A stretch of DNA of 47,811 bases from Thermoplasmata archaeon. Its GTDB lineage: Archaea > Thermoplasmatota > Thermoplasmata > Sysuiplasmatales > Sysuiplasmataceae. The position numbers and the translations under genes were made by a program. The stretch is taken from the NCBI GenBank assembly GCA_021817225.1, contig JAKAVR010000008.1, forward strand, positions 1-47,811. Direction: 5' to 3'. The notes below the pieces were generated by a model. That model was not told the origin of the DNA. It was given only the letters and a program-made list of their open reading frames with translations, and did not search any database. Shown in pieces: positions 6,170 through 38,197 of the stretch. The stretch's first letter is position 1, and every line of letters begins with the position of its first letter.

Positions 6170-8257
6170 ATGATGACAGAAGGAGAGCCGCCGCGTAACA
6201 AGTCCATCAGGACAATGTCCGGTGGAACGGAGGCTATGAAGCAGCTCTCCAGGGAATTGAGGGAAGGTGAACAGTCCGCAATCGTCGTGCTGGAGCACGA
6301 TGGTTCCGAAGGCAAGTTCCGCGGATACATCTCCTTCAAGAAGGGAGCCATAGTCGAGGCGCTGTACAAGGCTACGGCGAAGGATGGCAGCTCAAGCTCC
6401 AGGAGTGGAAAAGAGGCGCTCAGAAGGGTCTGGAGAGAAGCGCTGGATCCACTTGTCAGGATGAAGGTATACAGCATCGAGCCCAGGGAAGAAGAACCGA
6501 AGGATGCAGAAGGCACAGATAACATGCCTGCGACAGTAACGGCAAGGAAAGTCAAGAAGCTGAAAAGCGAAGGACAGGAAGACGCCATGGTTGCACAGGT
6601 CACGGTCTGGAAGGAGGAGGGCTACGCAGTAGACGACCTGCTTGAAAAGATGAAGGCGGAAGACCAGAACTCTTTCCGCATTTACATGGAATACGACGCA
6701 AAGATCAAAAGGCTCAAGAATCTGGAAGGGGCGCTGAAGGAACTCGAGGGAAGAGGTTTTGACGGGGACTTTCAGAGGCTTTCAGGGCTGGCCAAGGAAC
6801 CAACCAAGGTGGCAGAGCTTGAACTTGGCATGGCGCTGCTTAAGAGAAAAGCAGAAAACAGGAAAAGCAGGCAGATGCCAAAACAGGATACGGCGAGCGA
6901 CTACGACGAGGTCTACAGTGTCATCTTCGGAACGGAGAGCGCGGGGCCAGCCGACGGGAAGTGTCCCAACTGCGGTGCAAAAATGGTGTCGGCCACATGT
7001 GACATTTGCGGTCATTCAATTGGACCGGAGAGCAACGGCGCTACGGGCTTGAACACTGCGTTGAATTTCGACAATTTCGTTGTCGGCTCCAGCAACAAGT
7101 TTGCCTACGCGGCATGCATTTCAATTGCCAATTCAAGTCCGGACCAGTACAATCCGCTCTTCATTTACTCTGCACCGGGGCTTGGAAAAACTCATCTCCT
7201 CAATGCAATTGGCAACCAGATAAGAGAGGAGAGGAAGGGCTACCGTGTCATGTACACGGGAGCAGAGAAACTGGTTGACGAGCTGATTGCACCGACAAAG
7301 GAGAAAGGAGACGGCTATGCCTCAACACTCAGAAAACTCGACTTGCTACTGATAGACGACATACAGTTCATTTCGGGAAAGGATGAAGCGCAGAATCTGC
7401 TGCTTGGTGTCATGAGTTCACTCCTCAGGGACGGCAAGAACGTTGTCATCTCGGGCGACATGCAGCCGAAGGACATACAGGGTCTGGAGAGCCAGCTTGT
7501 GGCGAGGCTCGAATCGGGACTGCTCGTTGACATGAGGCCTCCCGACATGGAAACGAGAATCAGGATACTCGAGCAGAAGATAAGGGAGGAGAAGTACCAG
7601 ATGCCGCAGTCTGTGCTGAAGTTCATTGCCGAGACAGTGGATGACAACATAAGGGAGCTGACAGGCTCGCTGAACAGGGTCGTTGCGTACAGCACGCTTA
7701 TGAAAATACCGCCGACAGTGGAAACGGCAAAAAGGATACTGAAGATCGCACCACAGGAACAGAGGAAGGAGACGAAGGCGAGGATAGAACTTCGCCCGGG
7801 GCATGGCTACCTGATTGAAGAGGACAGGGCAAGCATGTGCCACCTGCTTGTGCAGGAGAAACTGGGGGAGAACTGGATTGCCCTGGACATTTCGAGAGTA
7901 AACCCCACCAGGCTTCGCACAAAGTTCCCCGGCCTGGAGAAGGCGCGCGTCGTATGGCTGACGGATCGGGAGAGCGACCGCGAAATCACTCTCCAGCCTT
8001 CTCTTGAGAAGATAGAGTTTGAAATCAGGGGATTCATGGAGTCCGCATCAAGAGAAAATACGAGGGCAATAGTCAACATTGACGACCTGCAGTATGTTGT
8101 AAGCAACACAAACTTCGAAGGAACGGTCAGACTGCTGAGGAGGACAGTCGATGAGATGTCCGAGCGCAATTCGGTGCTTATCATCTCGGTTGGAAAGGAA
8201 ACACTGGCCAAGCAGGAGATAGCGATCCTTGAACGGGAGCTTGAACTCATACAGTAG
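6170..8257 (+). CDS. DnaA-type AAA+ ATPase with zinc ribbon and DUF835-like C-terminus
   Basis: A 695-residue soluble protein. Residues about 20-105 form a small N-terminal domain reminiscent of PATAN/DUF4388-type domains, and 135-240 are charged and helical. A zinc ribbon has Cys265, 268, 277 and 280. Residues 298-525 match the bacterial DnaA AAA+ core closely: NFDNFVVGSSNKFAYAA, Walker A GLGKTH (337-342), the initiator-specific segment YTGAEKLVDEL, Walker B LLLIDDIQF with Asp396-Asp397, RLESGLLVDMRPPD with its candidate arginine finger, and sensor 2 NIRELTGSLNRV. The DNA-binding domain IV of DnaA is absent. Residues about 545-690 resemble DUF835 instead (GYLIEE..., VVWLTD, VNIDDLQYVV). Archaea start replication with Orc1/Cdc6, so this is more likely a DnaA-derived regulator or signalling ATPase. 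ATG 6173 is an equal start. Confidence 0.85.
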   Translation: MMTEGEPPRNKSIRTMSGGTEAMKQLSRELREGEQSAIVVLEHDGSEGKFRGYISFKKGAIVEALYKATAKDGSSSSRSGKEALRRVWREALDPLVRMKVYSIEPREEEPKDAEGTDNMPATVTARKVKKLKSEGQEDAMVAQVTVWKEEGYAVDDLLEKMKAEDQNSFRIYMEYDAKIKRLKNLEGALKELEGRGFDGDFQRLSGLAKEPTKVAELELGMALLKRKAENRKSRQMPKQDTASDYDEVYSVIFGTESAGPADGKCPNCGAKMVSATCDICGHSIGPESNGATGLNTALNFDNFVVGSSNKFAYAACISIANSSPDQYNPLFIYSAPGLGKTHLLNAIGNQIREERKGYRVMYTGAEKLVDELIAPTKEKGDGYASTLRKLDLLLIDDIQFISGKDEAQNLLLGVMSSLLRDGKNVVISGDMQPKDIQGLESQLVARLESGLLVDMRPPDMETRIRILEQKIREEKYQMPQSVLKFIAETVDDNIRELTGSLNRVVAYSTLMKIPPTVETAKRILKIAPQEQRKETKARIELRPGHGYLIEEDRASMCHLLVQEKLGENWIALDISRVNPTRLRTKFPGLEKARVVWLTDRESDREITLQPSLEKIEFEIRGFMESASRENTRAIVNIDDLQYVVSNTNFEGTVRLLRRTVDEMSERNSVLIISVGKETLAKQEIAILERELELIQ

Positions 8258-17069: not shown

Positions 17070-20000
<2,931 letters not shown>

Positions 20001-22923: not shown

Positions 22924-25900
22924 GTGTCAGAGGCTGATTTGCAGTCAGTGGAGCCCACAGGCTCCTTTAACGAGTATGATCGGAGACAATCTGTAACTGT
23001 CGGGGGCAATCTGGACGAAGTCACTGCACGGAAGATACTAGACACCATAAGGGCAAGCAGGGACTTCATAGAGGAAGCCGAACTCGCAAAGCAATGCAGG
23101 GCGGTCGTCGAATTTTACCAGGAGAAGGGGAACTTCCAGGGAATTGTGGATGCTTACTCGCTCATAGGGACGCTACCCCTGTCAATTCAGGACGCCTATG
23201 CCCTGTCTGTCTCCCTTGCCCAAACAGGAAATCTGGAGCGGGCAAGAACAGTCATTGCCTCAATTGCGTGGAAGGACAGGGAGGATCTCAAACTGACATC
23301 CCTTGGAAAGCTATTGATCGCGCAGGGCAAGGAGCTCGATGCGAAGGCCCATTTCACCGCCGCCCTGAAGATAAACGCAGGGAACCAGGAGGCAATGGCC
23401 GAGTTGTCCCTACGATGGCCAGAGGATGAAGCGCTCCTTCTTGCCAAGGGTGAAGCACTCAGACTGCAGGGAAAATCGGAAGAGGCGTCGAAGACATTTG
23501 AAAAACTGCTGGAGAAGGGTGAAGAAAGCCCGGAAGTTCTCAGATCGGCAGGAATTGCGATGGCGGACGCAAGGCACTTCGAGGATGCTGAAAAACTTCT
23601 TGAGAAAGCAGCAAGCCGGGGGGATGCCGCCGAGGCGATGCTTGCCCTTGGCCTAGTCCAGATTGAGAGGAATGAAGTCGAAGCTGGAGTCAGAAACATA
23701 GAGGAAGGATTGAGAAAAGGGGCGGGCAGAAAGCCGGAAGTGATCAAGAGGCTTGCAATCGCCTACGCAGAACAGGGGGAGAACAAGAAGGCGGTTGATG
23801 CGGTTGACTTTGTTCTGAAGGAATGGAAGCAGGATGAAGGCGAAAAGAAAGCATTTGAACTAAGGTTGCTAGAAACTTCGAAAAATCACGGTAACAACAG
23901 CACAAGGCTGGTTGCGGCTGAAAAACTATTGAGCGGCGATGAGACGAGTCGGATCTTCCAGGCGGAAAAGATAGATGCTCTGAATGAGCTTGGAAGATAT
24001 GAAGAAGCGCTAGGTTTCCTGGACGGGCACAGGCAGATAGACAATTATCACGAAAGGAGAATGGATATACTAAGGCGGTCAGGCAGGCTCCAGGATGCTG
24101 AGTCGGAGGCTGATCAACTGCTGAAGAGGGATGCACGGAATCAGGAGGCTCTTTTCACAAAGCTGCAGGCAGCAAACGAGAAGGGAGAAGGCAGGAAGGC
24201 ACTGAGGCAGTATGAGAAAACGGTACTAAGGCACGGCGGGGAGAAACTCCTGAAGCTTCATCTTGAGATCGCGAAGCGCTGCAGGGAGGATTTGATGGTT
24301 GTCAGGGCCTGCCAGGCGCTCATATCGTCCGGAAAATCTACCATTAACATTCTTGGGGACAGGGCGGTGGCTGTCGAACGGCTCGGCAGGACAGCACAGA
24401 GCATGAAGTATCTCAGGAAGCTTTACAGGAGAAACAGAAATGTCGAATCACTTGAACTCCTGACTTCGTTCTACGCGAGACACGGGAAAGGGAGTGAAGA
24501 GGAGAGGCTTCTTGCGGAAGCGCATGCAACAATGGAGCTCCCCATAGGACTGCTCGAAAGGCTTGCGAAGCTCAAGATGGACAGGGGGGAGGAAGCGGAG
24601 GCCTTTTCAATAATAGCATCGGCGATAGAAAAAAAGGAAACGCCGGAGGGAAGGTACCTTGAAGCCGAGGTACTCCTGAAGACGGGAAAGATGGAAGACG
24701 CACTGAAGGCGGTAGGCAGGGCTATGCAGCTGGGCTACCCTGGAAAAATAGGAGAGTTTCTGGCAGGAAGGGCAGAGGAGGCAGCAGGTCACTTTGAATC
24801 CGCACTTCAGCGGTACAACAGATCGATAGGTTACGGTCTGTCGACGCCTGACATTTTCCTGAGCAGGGTAAACATATACAAGCAGATGGGCAAGGCAGCT
24901 GAAGCGAAAGAAGAGATGCAGTCAATTGAGAAATTGTTCGCAGATGATTCCCTGGTCCAGGGCGAATGCATCGAATTCTACTTCTCAACCGGAATGTATC
25001 AGCAATGCATAGAAACGGCAGAGCGGCTCATCAAGTCTGACAGAAACAATGAAAAGGCATGGAAGAAGAGAGGTCTTTCACTGCTTGCAATAAAGAGATA
25101 TGATGATGCAATAACATCGCTGGAGGCTGCCCTGAAGATCAACAGGGACAGTGACACCGTTGCAGGCCTCAAGGAGGCTTACAACGCCAAGGGAGACCAG
25201 AAGTCGATAATCAGGACTATAGACATGCTGCTCGAATTCAAGGGCACTGACAAGAAACTCCTGCTTGAGAAAGGAGACGTGCTGGCTGATATCGGCAGGC
25301 CCGAAGAAGCCATGAGCGCATACCAGGCAGCCATGGACAGGTTCGGCCAGGATGAAGATGCCGTCATCAGAAAGGCAGGAATCCTCCACGCCAAGAAGGA
25401 CTACCAGGACGAGCTTGAATTGCTGATTGAATTCCTCAAGAAGGATGACAAGAAACCAGCGTTGCTTTCAATGGTGTCCAGGGCATACCTGGCCATCAAG
25501 AGATATTCCGACGCGCTCGAATATGCAGACAGGGCAATGCAGCTCGAGCCGGAGAACATAAAGCACCTTGACCTGCGGGCAGAGATACTCTCTTCGCTGG
25601 GAAGATACGACGAGGCTGAAAGGAGCGTTGACATAGCGCTCAGTGTATCGCCGAAGGACCCCGATGCACTGGAAATCAAGGGAAATGTTCTGATGAAGGA
25701 CGGCAGGTACTCACAGGCGCTGGAACTACTCAATGGGGCTCTTTCAGCAGGCATATGCAATCCACAGATATACAGGAACAGGGGAGAATGCCTTATGAAC
25801 CTCGAAAGGCACTCCGAAGCCCTTGACTCATTCACGAAGGCATTGAAGGATGAGCCGGAGAATCCGGGCATTCTGCTCGGGAAAGGTATGTGCGAGCTTA

Positions 25901-27039
25901 CCCTCGGGAGGTACTCATCAGCAACGCTTTCCCTCAACGAGCTCACAAAGAGGGATCCGGAGAATGGCGGTGGTTGGTACTATTTCGCAATGGCACTGAA
26001 GAACCAGAAAGTGCTCTCGGAAGCTAAACGTGCGTTCTCAGAGGCGGTGAGGCTCGATGATACTCTTGACAGGGCCTGGCATGAACTTGCCGAAATGCAC
26101 ATGAGCGCCGGCGATCTTGACGAGGCTGAAAGGGCGTACGAGAAGTCGCTTGAGTATTCGCCTGCTGACAACGACAGCAGGGAAGGACTGGAAACATGCA
26201 GAAATGCCAAAGGAAGACAGAGAGCAGAAGACAACGCGATTGCACTTCTCAAGCTTGAATACGAGCTAAACAGGAACCCCACCAAAGAGGAAGCATTCTC
26301 AGTCTGCAGAATACCGATGGATGAAATAGACATTGCTTTCGACCTGGTGAATGAGCCGACAACTCTCGCAGTCCCTTCAAGCGGCGAAAAAGGCTGGAAA
26401 GAAGTCGAAGACAGATCTGCATCGGTCCTGTCAAAGTGCTTCAAGAACAGGGAAACAGCCAGCTACGGTGTGAGACTCTGCGATATAGTTTACAACTTCC
26501 CTTCACTCACACTGGATGAGGCAAAACAGCTGTTCGAATACATCGCAAAAATCCAGAAGCTTAGCGTCATAGATGCAATCGAGGATGAAAAATTCGAACG
26601 GTTGCTGAAAAAAGCGACCAAGTTGAGGCAGGCGGATCGCTCACTGATAGGGATAATAACCAATCTCGGTGTCGGGATTTATATCGCAAAGCTGCTGGAG
26701 TCAAGCCTTGTGGCAATGGGCCAGTCAGGCTACACGACAGACTTTGTGAGTTTCTCCGCTGAGCCCTCGGAGGAGGAGAGCACCGGACAGACCGAAGCCT
26801 ACGACCCCTATGAGGTGAGGAGACAGCTCTACGATCAGTTCTACGGCGGTGAGACACCGCAACCGGCAGAGGAGGAGGGCAGCACGCAGAGATGCCTGTA
26901 TCACGGCGAAGATGCGATAGGAGCCTGCAGTTCCTGCCAGACAAACATATGCAACAGCTGCCTGTCGGCAACGGACGGCCACTGCCCCAACTGCGGTGTA
27001 GTGCTGCTGAGCGACGAGGCAGGCAGCACAGCCGCGTGA
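22924..27039 (+). CDS. Giant TPR-repeat protein with C-terminal zinc module
   Basis: The 1371-residue protein is almost entirely tetratricopeptide repeats up to about residue 1095. Many 34-residue units show the W/L-x2-G/A/S...Y/F...A-x4-P/L pattern, such as YSDALEYADRAMQLEPENIKHL and YDEAERSVDIALSVSPKDPDAL. A helical region without repeats follows (about 1100-1270), then an acidic linker and a cysteine cluster near the end (CLYHGEDAIGACSSC..CNSCLS...CPNCG) resembling a B-box or double zinc ribbon. No signal peptide or membrane helix exists, so it is cytoplasmic. TPR arrays scaffold protein complexes; no partner is named by context. The start is GTG 22,924. It ends 4 bases from the convergent truD. 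Confidence 0.85.
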   Translation: MSEADLQSVEPTGSFNEYDRRQSVTVGGNLDEVTARKILDTIRASRDFIEEAELAKQCRAVVEFYQEKGNFQGIVDAYSLIGTLPLSIQDAYALSVSLAQTGNLERARTVIASIAWKDREDLKLTSLGKLLIAQGKELDAKAHFTAALKINAGNQEAMAELSLRWPEDEALLLAKGEALRLQGKSEEASKTFEKLLEKGEESPEVLRSAGIAMADARHFEDAEKLLEKAASRGDAAEAMLALGLVQIERNEVEAGVRNIEEGLRKGAGRKPEVIKRLAIAYAEQGENKKAVDAVDFVLKEWKQDEGEKKAFELRLLETSKNHGNNSTRLVAAEKLLSGDETSRIFQAEKIDALNELGRYEEALGFLDGHRQIDNYHERRMDILRRSGRLQDAESEADQLLKRDARNQEALFTKLQAANEKGEGRKALRQYEKTVLRHGGEKLLKLHLEIAKRCREDLMVVRACQALISSGKSTINILGDRAVAVERLGRTAQSMKYLRKLYRRNRNVESLELLTSFYARHGKGSEEERLLAEAHATMELPIGLLERLAKLKMDRGEEAEAFSIIASAIEKKETPEGRYLEAEVLLKTGKMEDALKAVGRAMQLGYPGKIGEFLAGRAEEAAGHFESALQRYNRSIGYGLSTPDIFLSRVNIYKQMGKAAEAKEEMQSIEKLFADDSLVQGECIEFYFSTGMYQQCIETAERLIKSDRNNEKAWKKRGLSLLAIKRYDDAITSLEAALKINRDSDTVAGLKEAYNAKGDQKSIIRTIDMLLEFKGTDKKLLLEKGDVLADIGRPEEAMSAYQAAMDRFGQDEDAVIRKAGILHAKKDYQDELELLIEFLKKDDKKPALLSMVSRAYLAIKRYSDALEYADRAMQLEPENIKHLDLRAEILSSLGRYDEAERSVDIALSVSPKDPDALEIKGNVLMKDGRYSQALELLNGALSAGICNPQIYRNRGECLMNLERHSEALDSFTKALKDEPENPGILLGKGMCELTLGRYSSATLSLNELTKRDPENGGGWYYFAMALKNQKVLSEAKRAFSEAVRLDDTLDRAWHELAEMHMSAGDLDEAERAYEKSLEYSPADNDSREGLETCRNAKGRQRAEDNAIALLKLEYELNRNPTKEEAFSVCRIPMDEIDIAFDLVNEPTTLAVPSSGEKGWKEVEDRSASVLSKCFKNRETASYGVRLCDIVYNFPSLTLDEAKQLFEYIAKIQKLSVIDAIEDEKFERLLKKATKLRQADRSLIGIITNLGVGIYIAKLLESSLVAMGQSGYTTDFVSFSAEPSEEESTGQTEAYDPYEVRRQLYDQFYGGETPQPAEEEGSTQRCLYHGEDAIGACSSCQTNICNSCLSATDGHCPNCGVVLLSDEAGSTAA

Positions 27040-27043
27040 CAGG

Positions 27044-28339
27044 TCAGTTCTTCGTTATTTCCCTGAGAAGTGAAGTGGCATAGCTTCCCTTAATCAGCTT
27101 GAAATGAAGCTTCAGGGAATTGCCGTCAACCTCCATACGCAACTCGTGAAGGGGAGACAGCATCTCCCTTCTGGAGCCCGAGGATGTGCACTCCCCAATC
27201 TCGGGGACAATGAAGTCCTGTTCCTTCAGATCGTTGCGCTCGACAACCTTCCTCTCTATTATGCCCTGGATTCCATCCGCAAATACCGGTTGCCACCCAA
27301 ACAGTATTCCTGAAACGAAGCCGAATCCCCTTCCGACCTGTTCAGCAACTGCGACAAGGTTCCTTTCATCAACCTTAATCTGCCTCTCTCTGTCCGGCAC
27401 GCCTGTTTCCCTGGCGGCAAGGACAATATCTCCCACCACGGGCCTGTCAAGTGGAACACCGGAAAGGATACGATCACATATGATTTCATTGAAAAGCTTC
27501 GCCTGAACAGCATGGACAAACATCATAAGCATGTTTGGTGGAAGCTGGCGAAGGCTCCCGACGAAATCCCCGGGGTGCTTCTGAAGGTACTGGAGCATTG
27601 TCTTTTCGAATGTCATTACACCGGGGAGTATTGAAAGAATCTCTGAAATCGGGCCGCCGCTGTCAAAGAGAGCTCTAGCCCTCCGGACCTCCTCGTCTTC
27701 GCCTGAACCGGGGTTTCCGGCATATGCATGGACGGCACCCTCGAAATCCTTCTTGATTATCCGCAGTCCTACGATATGCGTGTTTGGCCTGAGGCTGCCG
27801 AACCTCTGAACGCCGAAGAAATTCGGAAAGCCTCCAGTGGATGTGATGTTGTCCAGGACCGTCCTTGCAGTTGATTCGAGCTCGTTGCCAGACATCTGGC
27901 ATTCCCTGATGACAATATCAAATTCATTCCCCCAAAGGTTGCCGAGCGTTATTGCGCGGGCAGCCAGGTGCATTGGCTCGATGGTCACATCCCTGATGTT
28001 TAGCGCCCGAACCCCGTCCTTCTCAACACCCTCGAAAGTCATGAACTGGGTCGTGACCCCCCTCTTGTCCTTGGTCCCGGCAAATCCAATTCTTTTCCTG
28101 CTGATGGCCAGTCTCCGGGACAGTTCCCTGATCAGCCTGTTTGTCTCCCAGTTCCTGGCGGTTACCCTGCAGATGAGGAAACGGCCAGCCTCCTTCTCGA
28201 CAGGTAGGTCAGGGATTTCCCTCACTACAAAATCATCGATCTCGACCTTGATCCTGCCCCCTGTACCCCTGCATGCGCCGGTCAGGTAGAGGCTCATACC
28301 AAGCTCAGAGTCACTTGACTTCGGTTCTATGGATTGCAT
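27044..28339 (-). CDS. truD: tRNA pseudouridine(13) synthase TruD
   Basis: The 431-residue enzyme isomerises uridine 13 of tRNA. The family signature GFAGTKDKRGVTTQ (85-98) with catalytic Asp91 is intact. FVVREIPD, the N-terminal substrate strand, lies at 37-44, and the TruD-specific insertion begins near NFFGVQRFG (about 173). Length fits archaeal TruD/Pus7 proteins. It follows rpoL by 7 bases, so the two probably form an operon, with translation and transcription functions together. No anomaly is seen. Confidence 0.93.
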   Translation of the reverse strand: MQSIEPKSSDSELGMSLYLTGACRGTGGRIKVEIDDFVVREIPDLPVEKEAGRFLICRVTARNWETNRLIRELSRRLAISRKRIGFAGTKDKRGVTTQFMTFEGVEKDGVRALNIRDVTIEPMHLAARAITLGNLWGNEFDIVIRECQMSGNELESTARTVLDNITSTGGFPNFFGVQRFGSLRPNTHIVGLRIIKKDFEGAVHAYAGNPGSGEDEEVRRARALFDSGGPISEILSILPGVMTFEKTMLQYLQKHPGDFVGSLRQLPPNMLMMFVHAVQAKLFNEIICDRILSGVPLDRPVVGDIVLAARETGVPDRERQIKVDERNLVAVAEQVGRGFGFVSGILFGWQPVFADGIQGIIERKVVERNDLKEQDFIVPEIGECTSSGSRREMLSPLHELRMEVDGNSLKLHFKLIKGSYATSLLREITKN

Positions 28340-28346
28340 GAGAGTT

Positions 28347-28622
28347 TCAACGGGACTTCTTCTCTATCTTTGACTTGAGGTCCGTGAATTCCTTGTTTAC
28401 GTTCTCAGCTGCCTTCTTCAAAGCAGTCTTTGGATCGCCTGAAGTGACTTTGATGTAAACAGAGGGGACATCGAGTTCAGGGTGGCCCTTCAGATATTTC
28501 GCCTCGGCGACCTTTTCATTCTTAAGAAGCTCGGCCAGCAGGGGATGCATCAGTGTGTCATCGACACCCACAACACTGACTGTAAGTTCCTTTTCCTTTT
28601 CTTCAACGACCTTGAGTTCCAT
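28347..28622 (-). CDS. rpoL: DNA-directed RNA polymerase subunit L (Rpo11)
   Basis: The 91-residue protein shows the Rpb11/RpoL pattern: an N-terminal strand MELKVVEEKEKELTVSVVG, DDTLMHPLLAELLKNEKVAEAKYLKGHP (the dimer helix and HP motif), then VYIKVTSGDPKTALKKAAENV. It pairs with Rpo3 (RpoD) in the assembly platform of archaeal RNA polymerase. A TATA-like GTTAATAAGC (plus 28,649-28,658, read on the minus strand) lies about 30 bases upstream, giving a nearly leaderless mRNA. Confidence 0.93.
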   Translation of the reverse strand: MELKVVEEKEKELTVSVVGVDDTLMHPLLAELLKNEKVAEAKYLKGHPELDVPSVYIKVTSGDPKTALKKAAENVNKEFTDLKSKIEKKSR

Positions 28623-29541: not shown

Positions 29542-29964
29542 ATGCCTACTGAAAATCCACGTATTCTTGTCTTTGCAGGGTCGATGGCCTACCTAGGGGC
29601 GGACAACGCTGGACTCCTGCACAAGGAATACCCTTCCAACTCGTTTGTAGTCAAAGTACCCTGCACGACGATGCTGAGGCCGGGACTGATTCTCTATGCG
29701 CTCCGGCATGGTTTTGACGGTGTCTTTGTTGCATCATCCGGACCTGACTGCCCCTACCTGCCTGACTGTGTGGAGAGGACGGCAAAGCGCGTGGAGTCGG
29801 CATATGATCTCCTGAAAAAGAACGGAATCGAACCGGAGCGGATTCAGCTCGCAGGCATTTGCTCGGTCTGTTCTGACGCATTCGCAAACAACGTGAAGCA
29901 ACTGCACTCCAGACTGAAGAAATTAGAGCCGATGAGGAGGGATGGTCTCCTTGTCAGTCAATGA
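29542..29964 (+). CDS. MvhD-like electron-transfer subunit with altered cysteines
   Basis: The 140-residue protein follows the MvhD/FlpD pattern: an N-terminal strand, CTTMLRPGLILYALRHGFDGVFVAS, DCPYLPDC, and LLKKNGIEPERIQLAGIC. MvhD carries a [2Fe-2S] cluster and links HdrA to an electron donor. The usual first cysteine pair is absent: the matching place reads FAGSMAYLGAD instead of a C-x2-C motif. Cysteines remain at 41, 70, 76, 107 and 110. A cluster, if present, must use another set. In QmoB of sulfate reducers this module is fused to the C-terminus of the HdrA-like subunit, whereas here it is separate and upstream. The end overlaps the next gene by 23 bases. Confidence 0.7.
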   Translation: MPTENPRILVFAGSMAYLGADNAGLLHKEYPSNSFVVKVPCTTMLRPGLILYALRHGFDGVFVASSGPDCPYLPDCVERTAKRVESAYDLLKKNGIEPERIQLAGICSVCSDAFANNVKQLHSRLKKLEPMRRDGLLVSQ

Positions 29965-31273
29965 ATACGACGTCCTGGTTATAGGCGGAGGCATTGCAGG
30001 AATGGAAGCTGCCACCGCCCTAGGCGACATGGGCTTCAGCGTTGTCCTTGTCGAAAAGGAGCCAAGCATAGGCGGAATAATGATTTCCCTAAGCAAGGTG
30101 TTCCCCACGACAGATTGTGCAAGCTGCATCTCATCGCCAAAGGTGTCTACCGTCGCTCACCATCAGAACATAAAACTGTTGACCTATTCTGAAGTGCTTG
30201 ACGTGAGGAAGGAGAATGGAGAGTTCAAGGCGAGGGTGAAGCAGAAAGCAAGATTCGTCCACCCGGAGGACTGCACCGGCTGCCTCAAGTGTGAGCAGGC
30301 GTGCCCCGTGATGGTCCCGCATGAGTTCAATCAGGGCTTCGTAGGAAGGAAAGCGGCATATGTGCCGTTTGACACGGCATATCCGAGGTCCGCTGTGATA
30401 GACCTCAACAACTGCATTTTCTGTGGAGCATGTGAAAGGGTGTGCCCCACGAATGCAATCGACTTCCTCCAGAAGGATGAAGAGGAGGAGCTGAGTGCAA
30501 AAGCTGTCCTGATAACAACGGGGGGAAAACTCTTCCCGATGGAGAGGAAGAAAGAATTCGGATACAAAAAAATAAGCAATGTGATCAACGGACTGCAGAT
30601 GGAAAGGCTGCTTGCACCTACGAGGCCGTTCAACACGGTCCTGAGACCTTCCGACGGAAAGGTTCCCGGGAAGATTGGCTATGTTCTATGCGCCGGCTCA
30701 AGGGACGCTTCTCTAGGAAACCCCTACTGTTCGAGGATATGCTGCATGTACTCAATCAAGCAGGCAATCCTTCTGATGGGCGCCCTCCCCCTGGTGGACG
30801 TTACAATACACTACATGGACATAAGGGCCTTCGGCAAGGGTTATGAGGAATTCTACAGGCAGGCCGTAGATATGGGCGTCCAGTTTGTCCGGGGCAGGGT
30901 TGCTGACCTGAATGAGCTTGAAAACGGCGATGTCCTCATGAAGTCCGAGAATACGGATACGGGTAAGATTGTTGAGGAGAAATATGACTTGGTTGTGCTT
31001 GCAGCCGGAATACTTCCCGAAACGCACAACAGAACGGCAACAGAAGCACTTGGATATGCAACAGACTCGATAGGTTTCATAAAGCCTCGGGCTGACACGA
31101 TAGGTGCAACAGAGGTATCGGAAGGAGTCTTTGCGGCCGGTCTTGGCACGGGTCCCAAGGACATAGTGGATACCATTGCGGAGGCGGATGCGGCTGCATC
31201 ATCTTGCGCGTCGTACATGAAGGAGAACTTCGGCAAGGAGAGAGCTGAAAAGATCCTCAGGGAGCTGATGTAG
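29942..31273 (+). CDS. HdrA/QmoA-like FAD- and FeS-binding subunit
   Basis: The 443-residue flavoprotein starts with the FAD Rossmann motif VLVIGGGIAGMEAA (12-25) and ends with the second FAD-binding stretch GVFAAGLGTGPKDIVDTIAEADAA. Between them is the HdrA-specific DCASCISSPK (Cys59, Cys62) and two [4Fe-4S] ferredoxin motifs, CTGCLKCEQACP (Cys111, 114, 117, 121) and CIFCGACERVCP (Cys158, 161, 164, 168). CAGSRD..YCSRICCMYSIKQA is also family-typical. At this length, lacking the HdrA N- and C-terminal extensions, it fits QmoA better than HdrA proper. It would bifurcate or relay electrons on the cytoplasmic face of the complex. ATG 29,942 and TTG 29,951 are both possible starts. Confidence 0.85.
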   Translation: MVSLSVNEYDVLVIGGGIAGMEAATALGDMGFSVVLVEKEPSIGGIMISLSKVFPTTDCASCISSPKVSTVAHHQNIKLLTYSEVLDVRKENGEFKARVKQKARFVHPEDCTGCLKCEQACPVMVPHEFNQGFVGRKAAYVPFDTAYPRSAVIDLNNCIFCGACERVCPTNAIDFLQKDEEEELSAKAVLITTGGKLFPMERKKEFGYKKISNVINGLQMERLLAPTRPFNTVLRPSDGKVPGKIGYVLCAGSRDASLGNPYCSRICCMYSIKQAILLMGALPLVDVTIHYMDIRAFGKGYEEFYRQAVDMGVQFVRGRVADLNELENGDVLMKSENTDTGKIVEEKYDLVVLAAGILPETHNRTATEALGYATDSIGFIKPRADTIGATEVSEGVFAAGLGTGPKDIVDTIAEADAAASSCASYMKENFGKERAEKILRELM

Positions 31274-31274
31274 G

Positions 31275-33236
31275 ATGCCGGAGAGGATCGGCGTTTATGT
31301 CTGCTGGTGCGGCGGAAACATAGCGGATGTGGTCAACGTCAAGGAGGTGGCGAAACACGCCGCAGGCGTGCCTGAGGTCGTTGTTGCGAAGGATATCATG
31401 TTCGCATGTTCCGATGAAGGGCAGAAGACAATGGTGGACGACATAAAGAACCTCAAGCTGGATGGCATTGTGGTTGCATCATGTTCACCTGTTCTGCATG
31501 AGCAGACCTTCAGGAGGGTTGCTGAAAGGGCAGGCCTCAACAAGTACCTGTATGTCCAGGTCAACATAAGGGAGCAGGACAGCTGGGTGCATGCCCACGA
31601 CAAGAAGGGAGCAACCGAGAAGGCAGAGGAACTCGTCGGAATGGGAATTGAAAAGCTTGCAAGAGCCACACCGCTCAACCCGATAAAGGTGGAACTCACT
31701 TCAAAAGTTCTTGTCGTTGGCGGCGGTGTTTCAGGCCTGACGACAGCGCTTGAATTGGCAAGAGAGGGAATACATGTAACGCTGGTGGACCGGGATCGCT
31801 ACCTCGGGGGCTTCGTCAGGCGTCTGCCTGATGTAAATCCTGTCCACAGGCCTGGCAAGGATGTAATTGCCGACCTTTACAGCAGGGTGGTAAGCACAGG
31901 GAATGTCGAAATACTGTCAGGAACAGATTTGCTCGAGGTGAGCGGTTCCATAGGTCACTTCAGGGCAAGGTTCAAGGAAAGGTCCGGTCACATACGACAT
32001 GACGCAGACAGGGAGCTGCTTTCAAGGGCGGAGAGAGAGTGCCCGGTTGAAGTGGACAATGAGGAGAACTTCGGCTTTACCAGGAGAAAGGCAATTGTCC
32101 TCCCCGATGACAGGGTGCCGGAGACACCGTACATTGACATGGAGCATTGCATAAAATGCGGTGTATGTCAGAGACTCTTTGGGGAGGGTGTTTCATTTGA
32201 TGCCAGTGACATTGAGTTCGAGGAAGAATTCAGCATGGTTGTGCAGTCGACAGGTTTCCAGCCGTACCTTCCAGGAAGGGGTGAGTTTGGTTACGGCGAG
32301 ACAAGAAGGGTTCTGACGCTGCCTGAATTTCTGAGGCTGGCCGACACGTCCGGGAAAACACTCGTTTTCAACGGCAGGCAGGTGAGGGACGTAGCTTTTG
32401 TCTACTGCGTCGGGAGCAGGCAGACGGAAACGGGCGGACCCAATACATACTGCTCAAGATACTGCTGCACCTCCACTCTCAACACGGACAGCTACATAAA
32501 GAAGAAATTCGGCAGCAGCATAAACAGCTTCCACTTCTATCGTGACATAAGGGCGTACGGTCTGTACGAGACGATGTACGAAAGGGCTTCAAGGGAAAAG
32601 GGGCTTTTCATCCGTTACGACCCTGCTTCGCCGCCATCCGTTACCGCCGAAGGCGAGCGCGTAAAGCTGGTGACAAAGGACTCTCTCACGGCCGGAAGGG
32701 ACATAGAGGTGTCCGCCGACCTGGTGGTGCTTGTCACAGGCATGATGCCTAGCGAGGACGGAAAGAAGCTTTCGGCAGCGCTCAAAGTCTCATCCAGCAA
32801 GGACGGATTCGTGCAGGAGCTGCACCCGAAGCTCAGGCCGGTTGAAACAACCGTGGGCGGAGTCCTTGTTGGTGGGACTGCCCAGGGACCGAAGGACACG
32901 CATGAATCCATGATATCGGGAGCTGCAGCTGCCGCCAAGGCGTCGACCCTTCTGATGAAGGGCTACACCGAGCTCGAGCCGTATGTCGTGACAGTCTCGG
33001 AGCAAAAATGCAACGGCTGCACCCAGTGCGTGACCGAGTGCCCGGCGGGTGCAATATCGATGGTGGAAATGGAAGGGAGGCAGGTCGCCTCCGTCAATGT
33101 TGCCATGTGCAAGGGGTGCGGTGCTTGCGCGGCCATCTGCGAACCGGAGGCACTGCAGCTCATAGGATACACCTACCCGCAACTGCGTGCAATGGTGAGC
33201 TTCTCACCGCAACCACTGGGGGCCCAGTCAAAATGA
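31275..33236 (+). CDS. HdrA/QmoB-like FAD- and FeS-binding subunit
   Basis: The 653-residue protein has the full HdrA layout. The N-terminal domain IGVYVCWCGGNIADVV (Cys10, Cys12) includes VVASCSPVLHEQTFRRVAERAGLN and NIREQDSWVH. The FAD motif is VLVVGGGVSG (145-154), a core region contains CVGSRQ..YCSRYCC, and two C-terminal [4Fe-4S] motifs are CNGCTQCVTECP (579-590) and CKGCGACAAICEP (612-623). The inserted middle ferredoxin site is degraded: CIKCGVCQRLFGEG (Cys292, 295, 298) lacks the fourth cysteine and proline. It corresponds to QmoB without its MvhD tail, which is encoded separately upstream. It starts one base after the previous stop, so coupled translation is likely. Confidence 0.85.
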   Translation: MPERIGVYVCWCGGNIADVVNVKEVAKHAAGVPEVVVAKDIMFACSDEGQKTMVDDIKNLKLDGIVVASCSPVLHEQTFRRVAERAGLNKYLYVQVNIREQDSWVHAHDKKGATEKAEELVGMGIEKLARATPLNPIKVELTSKVLVVGGGVSGLTTALELAREGIHVTLVDRDRYLGGFVRRLPDVNPVHRPGKDVIADLYSRVVSTGNVEILSGTDLLEVSGSIGHFRARFKERSGHIRHDADRELLSRAERECPVEVDNEENFGFTRRKAIVLPDDRVPETPYIDMEHCIKCGVCQRLFGEGVSFDASDIEFEEEFSMVVQSTGFQPYLPGRGEFGYGETRRVLTLPEFLRLADTSGKTLVFNGRQVRDVAFVYCVGSRQTETGGPNTYCSRYCCTSTLNTDSYIKKKFGSSINSFHFYRDIRAYGLYETMYERASREKGLFIRYDPASPPSVTAEGERVKLVTKDSLTAGRDIEVSADLVVLVTGMMPSEDGKKLSAALKVSSSKDGFVQELHPKLRPVETTVGGVLVGGTAQGPKDTHESMISGAAAAAKASTLLMKGYTELEPYVVTVSEQKCNGCTQCVTECPAGAISMVEMEGRQVASVNVAMCKGCGACAAICEPEALQLIGYTYPQLRAMVSFSPQPLGAQSK

Positions 33237-38019: not shown

Positions 38020-38106
38020 GCAGGTGTAATCTAGTCTGGTTAGGATTTTGGCCTTCCATCTTCGGGATGAAAGCCAACAAGTCGGGTTCAAATCCCGACA
38101 CCTGCA
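38020..38106 (+). tRNA. tRNA-Gly (TCC) with a 13-base intron
   Basis: Acceptor GCAGGTG/CACCTGC, T-arm TCGGG/CCCGA and a weak D-arm ATC/GAT are present. The anticodon stem TTGGC/GCCAA closes CTTCCAA when 13 bases (about 38,059-38,071) are removed after position 37, giving anticodon TCC. The removed part contains CATC...GATG around TTCGG, able to form the local helix of a bulge-helix-bulge. Spliced length is about 74. Intron borders could shift by a base or two. No clear TATA element was seen upstream. Confidence 0.85.
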
Positions 38107-38197
38107 CCTGGACCTTCTCCCAGTGACGGAGGAATGGCAACTTGCCTTGAATCCCGAAGGCGTGGTTGAAAGAACCTGATTCCGGTCGTGAAATCAC

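Follow-up and report, generated by a model that had tools for sequence, protein, structure and literature searches.

Architecture of the TPR protein

In the 47,811-nucleotide window analysed here (positions 1 to 47,811 of the forward strand of contig JAKAVR010000008.1, assembly GCA_021817225.1 of a Thermoplasmata archaeon), a gene located at positions 22,924 to 27,039 of the forward strand encodes a 1371-residue protein made mostly of tetratricopeptide repeats (TPRs). We suggest, with a probability of about 0.6, that this protein is a cytosolic assembly scaffold conserved across Thermoplasmata, which works like Ski3, CTR9 and IFT139. The suggestion is based on architecture: the length of the TPR array is held across the class, no enzyme domain is present among the Pfam matches listed for the protein, and the array is combined with several docking-type modules, as in IFT139, Ski3 and CTR9. 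An earlier note, made from the letters of this DNA, had described a 1371-residue TPR protein ending in a cysteine-rich zinc module, and this description is confirmed (intact open reading frame (ORF), 31 TPR units, eight-ligand motif). Its proposal of a hub for a large assembly is plausible and, on architectural grounds, is the reading we prefer.

The array comprises 31 TPR units between residues 32 and 1082 (positions 23,017 to 26,169, forward strand), i.e. 62 helices with about 34 amino acids per unit, as judged from an AlphaFold2 model, the helix count, Pfam TPR families and per-unit conservation. Both the 34-residue two-helix repeats and the TPR profiles, which match far above their cut-offs (TPR_2, E value 5.7e-54), place the protein among the TPR repeat proteins. 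The model of residues 1-1111 has a mean predicted local distance difference test (pLDDT) score of 86, with very low confidence for residues 1-28. In it, the 62 repeat helices extend from residue 32 to 1078, and one long helix follows them. As the predicted template modelling (pTM) score of this model is 0.45, the overall curvature of the array is uncertain.

Foldseek comparison of the array gave the IFT-A protein TTC21B (chain 8fgw_D, E value 1.7e-20), the Ski complex (4buj_F, 1.0e-17), the Ctr9 complex (6af0_A, 3.4e-14) and OGT (1.5e-13), and a sequence search of the PDB with the whole TPR part returned generic TPR proteins, TTC37 and TTC21B among them. Three Pfam TTC21 models (PF25058, PF25062 and PF25063) pass their cut-offs (44.4/27, 44/40 and 36.3/35 bits), which may reflect the repeat type only, since many other TPR models pass too. 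The whole protein also matches TPR models of NCBIfam and PADLOC; among the 25 of 28 matches listed, one passes its cut-off (the short repeat model PPR, 22.5 versus 20 bits). IFT139/TTC21B, Ski3/TTC37 and CTR9 likewise use a long TPR superhelix as the backbone of a complex and are among the top Foldseek matches, a likeness of kind and repeat type. To our knowledge, none of them has the three-module helix-turn-helix (HTH)-like head, the zinc module or the D-x-x-R-L tail described below.

The reading frame is unbroken over 1371 codons, from a GTG start at position 22,924 to a stop codon ending at 27,039, as seen in the ORF list and its translation. A similar N-terminus encoded in a genome of the same genus (G002, locus L040) speaks for this start. 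The closest copy found, which is near-identical, belongs to Thermoplasmata archaeon YF1.bin95 (L001); it is partial, lacking about the first 80 residues, and the codon comparison with it covers 1291 codons. The nonsynonymous rate (dN) in this comparison is 0.020 and the synonymous rate (dS) 0.181, in keeping with a protein-coding gene under purifying selection.

Spread and conservation in Thermoplasmata

Matches to the C-terminal 277 amino acids were found in all 8 genomes of the window's order, and a profile built from those 8 sequences matched 233 of 400 Thermoplasmata genomes. The distribution across the class, which the earlier note had put forward as a check, is wide: a second profile of the C-terminal domain, built from 41 diverse members, matched 268 of the 349 class genomes that are at least 80% complete, 153 of 196 high-quality genomes and 83 of 94 genera. 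Most genomes have a single match, and the matches listed mostly sit in open frames of more than 1000 amino acids.

In an alignment of the 41 full-length members, the 40-residue blocks of the window protein between residues 121 and 1280 are 90-100% occupied, and the C-terminal domain starts after 986-1165 residues (more than 1050 in 40 of the 41 relatives). The length of the TPR array is therefore held across the class, and within Thermoplasmata such a long TPR protein is the rule. A loosely defined N-terminal segment resembling MGFLDSL-DKEKR occurs in 19 of the 61 members examined (the pattern misses some); it is frequent outside the window's family, not within it.

Members of families f6 and f17 (13 loci; family labels are those of the tool) are divergent, 1144-1279 amino acids long, and lack both the zinc module and the tail, while the array is kept. 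In a sample of the phylum, 122 of 389 genomes matched the 41-member profile. The matching genomes from outside the class number 20; in 15 of them only the linker or the zinc part is matched, which has little meaning, while in G403, G414, G422, G430 and G435 the helical domain lies inside ORFs of 889-1467 amino acids (the G430 locus, L097, is cut by its contig).

None of the searches gave a clear assignment to a described family, the outcome that would have spoken against the earlier note; the C-terminal region matches 0 NCBIfam families and 0 PADLOC models. No description of a family uniting TPRs, HTH-like modules and a zinc module was found in the searched literature, from which most subscription papers are missing, nor was this combination of known parts found elsewhere. 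The protein appears to represent a new family and a new domain combination, built from known kinds of parts.

A proposed scaffold and its possible docking sites

In the proposed mode of action, the TPR part would act as a backbone, as in the eukaryotic multi-subunit machines of Ski3, CTR9 and IFT139. The superhelix of 31 TPRs would form a long groove holding several partner proteins. Judging by their neutral to acidic charge, the three HTH-like modules might constitute a second protein-docking head, and conservation suggests that the zinc module, carried on a flexible linker, and the D-x-x-R-L-COOH peptide of the relatives could serve as further docking points. A long protein with a nearly fixed number of repeats, present in most of an archaeal class, likely organises something important. 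It offers a defined target in culturable relatives, and its HTH-like domain, zinc module and tail are separable parts.

Several observations weigh against the scaffold reading. The Foldseek matches of the array are generic, with template modelling (TM) scores of 0.14-0.27 by query length. No partner was identified, and the genes that regularly adjoin it have housekeeping functions and are encoded on the other strand. The median charge of the third HTH-like module is positive, and net charge as such is compatible with nucleic-acid binding. The window protein has no D-x-x-R-L tail, thus the tail is not required in this protein. Finally, 81 of the 349 class genomes have no match at an E value of 1e-3. 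Of 20 such genomes listed, 18 belong to f6, and the 20 non-matching genomes listed from the phylum sample comprise 13 of f17 and 7 of f6. This absence may reflect either loss or missed divergence, the latter because the f6 and f17 members that were detected are divergent.

The helix-turn-helix-like domain

The model of residues 1082-1371, built with 41 sequences (mean pLDDT 85.5), begins with the long helix; three HTH-like modules follow, then a linker that is poorly predicted and, last, the small zinc module. The modules, all encoded on the forward strand, were delimited from the model together with VIA-align for the first and alignments for the other two: module 1 spans residues about 1094-1143 (positions 26,203 to 26,352), module 2 about 1155-1212 (26,386 to 26,559) and module 3 about 1222-1267 (26,587 to 26,724). 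The linker that follows (26,725 to 26,892, forward strand) is of low confidence, with pLDDT below 50 in parts, and contains one predicted helix (YDPYEVRRQLYDQFYGG), which the alignment shows to be similar in other members of family f1.

The earlier note had regarded the region preceding the zinc module as a unique helical region. This view has to be replaced: the three-HTH-like domain is conserved and is the part of the protein shared most widely across the class, zinc-less members included.

Module 1 resembles region 3 of sigma-70 (sigma-B in VIA-align: Z 5.7, root-mean-square deviation (rmsd) 3.4 over 52 residues), and Sigma70_r3 (E value 0.0058) and FliA_WhiG (0.00053) each match weakly in 1 of 41 members. 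These matches, together with an rpoL gene (RNA polymerase subunit L) in the neighbourhood at many loci, might point to a transcription or chromosome protein, whose three HTH modules bind DNA or RNA polymerase while the TPR array carries effectors. We consider this unlikely. The tool warns of common arrangements at Z values of this size, and since the scores of several histone acetyltransferases against module 1 come close (Z 5.0-5.3), the likeness of this module to sigma-70 may be of that sort; moreover, it concerns only one of the three modules and stands here in an acidic context. Foldseek gave no match for the C-terminal part at an E value of 0.001 (best 0.22). As rpoL is separated from the TPR gene by truD and encoded on the other strand, its linkage is not co-transcription. 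DNA binding, the first reading of the HTH-like modules, was lowered because the HTH region is neutral to acidic, with a median net charge of -4 over 41 relatives. This charge suggests that the modules form a protein-docking head rather than a DNA-binding domain.

PCI-domain proteins, known from the proteasome lid and eIF3, also consist of helical repeats followed by HTH modules. Membership in this group was rejected: the model of the C-terminal part (model residues 1-190) has no strands, and thus the three modules of the window protein, unlike PCI domains, have no beta wing.

The zinc module

The protein ends in a B-box/RING-like module at residues 1324-1357 (positions 26,893 to 26,994, forward strand), recognised by its motif, by alignments and by profile and fold matches. 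Its eight putative Cys/His zinc ligands are arranged as follows: C1324-x2-H1327-x7-C1335-x2-C1338-x4-C1343-x2-C1346-x7-C1354-x2-C1357. Six of the eight ligand columns are nearly invariant among the 41 relatives (1327 and 1335 being the exceptions). The full motif is present in 43 of the 61 members examined. The other 18 are a truncated ORF (L042), an interrupted ORF (L050), L051, L077, L095 and the 13 f6/f17 members. The interrupted relative (L050:7414-11922) has a stop inside and the zinc module in a separate downstream ORF, which reflects either a sequencing error or a broken gene.

The commonest Pfam match of the module is zf-B_box, which occurs in 15 of the 41 members with a lowest E value of 0.00046. 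In the window protein, no Pfam model matches the C-terminal part better than B-box PF00643 (E value 0.0022), whose 18.6 bits fall below the gathering score of 24.1. The double zinc ribbon model DZR_2 matches in 3 of the 41, and Pfam RING models match in single members. Of the two resemblances proposed in the earlier note, that to a B-box is supported but weak, and that to a double zinc ribbon is weak. The module shares with B-boxes (PF00643, PF22586) the pattern C-x2-H-x7-C-x2-C-x4-C-x2-C...C-x2-C, and its first six ligands presumably fit the spacing of a B-box rather than that of a RING. B-boxes usually have histidines in the last ligand pair, where the window protein has C-x2-C; among its relatives this pair varies from C-x2-C to H-x-C. 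No RING or coiled coil was found beside the module.

RING fingers (RNF4, XIAP, PML) are alike by profile and fold and differ in ligand spacing. A profile search against solved structures gave RNF4 (E value 3e-7), RING2/BMI1 (1.1e-5), BIRC7 and MAT1 (4.9e-5). Among the fold matches listed, that of the zinc domain is the PML RING (Z 4.4, rmsd 2.6 over 45 residues), which Foldseek matched with a probability of 0.89 but an E value of 1.6. Prokaryotic RING and related domains were reportedly surveyed by Burroughs in 2011, and this module may already be classified there.

The earlier note had also linked the zinc module to the zinc ribbon of a DnaA-like protein encoded in the window, as signs of a shared signalling style. 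This kinship was not borne out, as the DnaA-like protein has a single CPNC...CDIC pair and not an eight-ligand module. The DnaA-like gene itself (6170 to 8257) encodes, in an archaeon, a bacterial-type DnaA ATPase domain that is preceded by the CPNC...CDIC pair and followed by DUF835.

Ubiquitin-like genes and the question of proteolysis

As the zinc module is RING-like, E2 genes were searched for. UQ_con exceeded its Pfam threshold in all 8 genomes from the window's order and in 0 of 14 control genomes, and it is present in 119 of the 349 class genomes. The E2 of the window's genome has an HPNI...GGVVC motif and adjoins JAB and ThiF genes. The E1 (ThiF), E2 (UQ_con) and JAB genes form a cluster on one strand (L130:7042-9122, contig C36 of genome G000). 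Related clusters were found at L131-L136, where homologues of all three genes lie close together, while L137 is arranged more loosely, its E2 match being weak and its E1 match about 4 kb off.

These genes allow the protein to be viewed as an E3-like adaptor of an archaeal ubiquitin-like cascade, in which the TPRs would choose substrates and the B-box/RING-like module would engage the E2. The model would be CHIP-type ligases, which combine a TPR array with a RING-like end (U-box), although the window protein has 31 TPRs instead of 3 and a zinc module instead of the U-box. Apart from the presence of the E1-E2-JAB cluster in the window's genome, the restriction of UQ_con relative to the controls and the RING matches given above, such an adaptor would agree with the co-occurrence of zinc module and E2, which exceeds expectation: in 53 genomes, both are present in 25, the zinc module only in 13, the E2 only in 4 and neither in 11 (Fisher p = 0.015, kinship ignored). 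This table covers 53 of the 61 loci, since L042 (contig end), L050 (interrupted), L056 (genome not scanned for E2) and L093-L097 (other classes) were dropped; absence of E2 means that the genome is not among the 119 UQ_con positives. However, no E2 was detected in 13 of the 38 genomes with the zinc module, and 4 of the 15 without the module do have an E2; as this overlap is too loose, no functional link between the module and E2 is claimed. The B-box-like spacing of the first six ligands, the Foldseek E value of the PML match, the proneness of profile matches of cysteine-rich motifs to inflation and the location of the TPR gene and the E2 gene on different contigs of the window's genome also argue against this role, which we regard as very unlikely. 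Regulated proteolysis, the other function raised in the earlier note, is unproven, in spite of the presence of E1, E2 and JAB genes.

A bolder variant would make the protein the substrate-holding scaffold of Thermoplasmata ubiquitin-like conjugation, its 31-TPR groove bringing clients to the E2 of the E1-E2-JAB cluster via the B-box/RING-like end, as an archaeal counterpart of the large TPR/solenoid-plus-RING ligases. We regard this speculation as very unlikely. A link between the protein and the E1-E2-JAB genes that share its genomes would, if real, be relevant to the origin of ubiquitin ligation.

According to a 2010 report, no archaeal E2-like protein had been detected by then (PMC2948915), and a 2017 report describes one in an uncultured archaeon, together with E1-like and RING genes (PMC5654768). 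That cascade uses a small RING protein, whereas here the RING-like module resides on a TPR giant. TPRs are also mentioned in Asgard ESCRT proteins (PMC10936438); a link to ESCRT was dropped, as nothing matching the TPR family was seen in the passages of that paper where these proteins are mentioned.

The C-terminal tail

Comparison of C-termini revealed a conserved tail, D-x-x-R-L-COOH, among the relatives; the corresponding end of the window protein (positions 27,022 to 27,036, forward strand) reads GSTAA. Among the 41 class members, 35 end in L, 25 in RL and 16 in [ST]RL. The information content is 2.88, 2.30 and 3.34 bits at positions -5, -2 and -1, whereas the remaining nine of the twelve C-terminal positions carry 0.94-1.55 bits. 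In 20 further loci, 6 proteins end in L and 1 in RL, and three members from outside the class end in WRDTL or WRDSL.

TPR grooves are known to read C-terminal peptides, as the TPRs of PEX5 read the C-terminal SKL. The tail might likewise be read by the protein's own groove or by that of a sister molecule, resulting in autoinhibition or head-to-tail assembly. The frequency of the terminal L and RL residues and the retention of the final L in L051 and L077, two members that have no zinc module, are in line with this idea, as is one outcome of a pattern scan for the tail: of 30 matches made into loci, 6 end an ORF of more than 120 amino acids, and all 6 are this TPR protein. On the other hand, the tail is missing from the window protein and from the 13 f6/f17 members, all of which keep the array, and any protein could be its reader. 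We consider self-recognition quite unlikely and retain the scaffold as the preferred reading.

The idea that the tail is shared with other proteins was rejected. In 16 genomes the tail pattern, which also admits TGG in place of the stop, gave 115 matches versus 178 in a reversed control, and among the 30 matches made into loci the six that end an ORF are all this TPR protein. Docking to the proteasome through an HbYX motif, as described in PMC4192671, was discarded, since 26 of 61 C-termini terminate in RL but only 2 in YL.

Locus and neighbouring genes

The TPR gene is followed by truD (27,044 to 28,339, reverse strand; Pfam TruD, E value 3e-134), a convergent neighbour with the same arrangement in other families, which serves as an orthology anchor and not as a claimed partner. 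Next to it lies rpoL (28,347 to 28,622, reverse strand; Pfam RNA_pol_L_2), part of the same conserved neighbourhood. Among the neighbourhoods of the 41 relatives, where each neighbour family was named from one representative, the truD and rpoL clusters each occur in 13, a gene with DUF5591, TGT and PUA domains, presumably archaeosine-synthase-like, in 14 and DNA ligase in 9. Of the 20 further loci, f6 members included, 5 have truD no more than 4 bases away from the TPR gene, and 9 have rpoL at a distance of about 1.3 kb.

At 21 of the 61 loci (e.g. L074:13066-13251), a small divergently transcribed gene, c1 (about 60-110 amino acids), directly precedes the TPR gene; one of these c1 matches is weak (E value 0.015). 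Its 16 aligned members have invariant W, H and G residues in the pattern dWMk.HTi.Dl. It occurs in 92 of the 349 class genomes. As none of the 6 genomes scanned from the window's family has it, c1 was rejected as an explanation for the window protein.

Upstream of the TPR gene, on the opposite strand, lies a K+ channel gene with a TrkA-N domain, and beyond it are an ISH3-like transposase gene and a 23S rRNA gene (17,074 to 19,996, reverse strand); Rfam found no 16S rRNA within the window. Past truD and rpoL, FlpD-like, HdrA-like and second HdrA-like genes stand in a row (29,542 to 33,236). A tRNA gene at 38,020 to 38,108, called by both ARAGORN and Rfam, was assigned a four-base anticodon (tcca) by ARAGORN.

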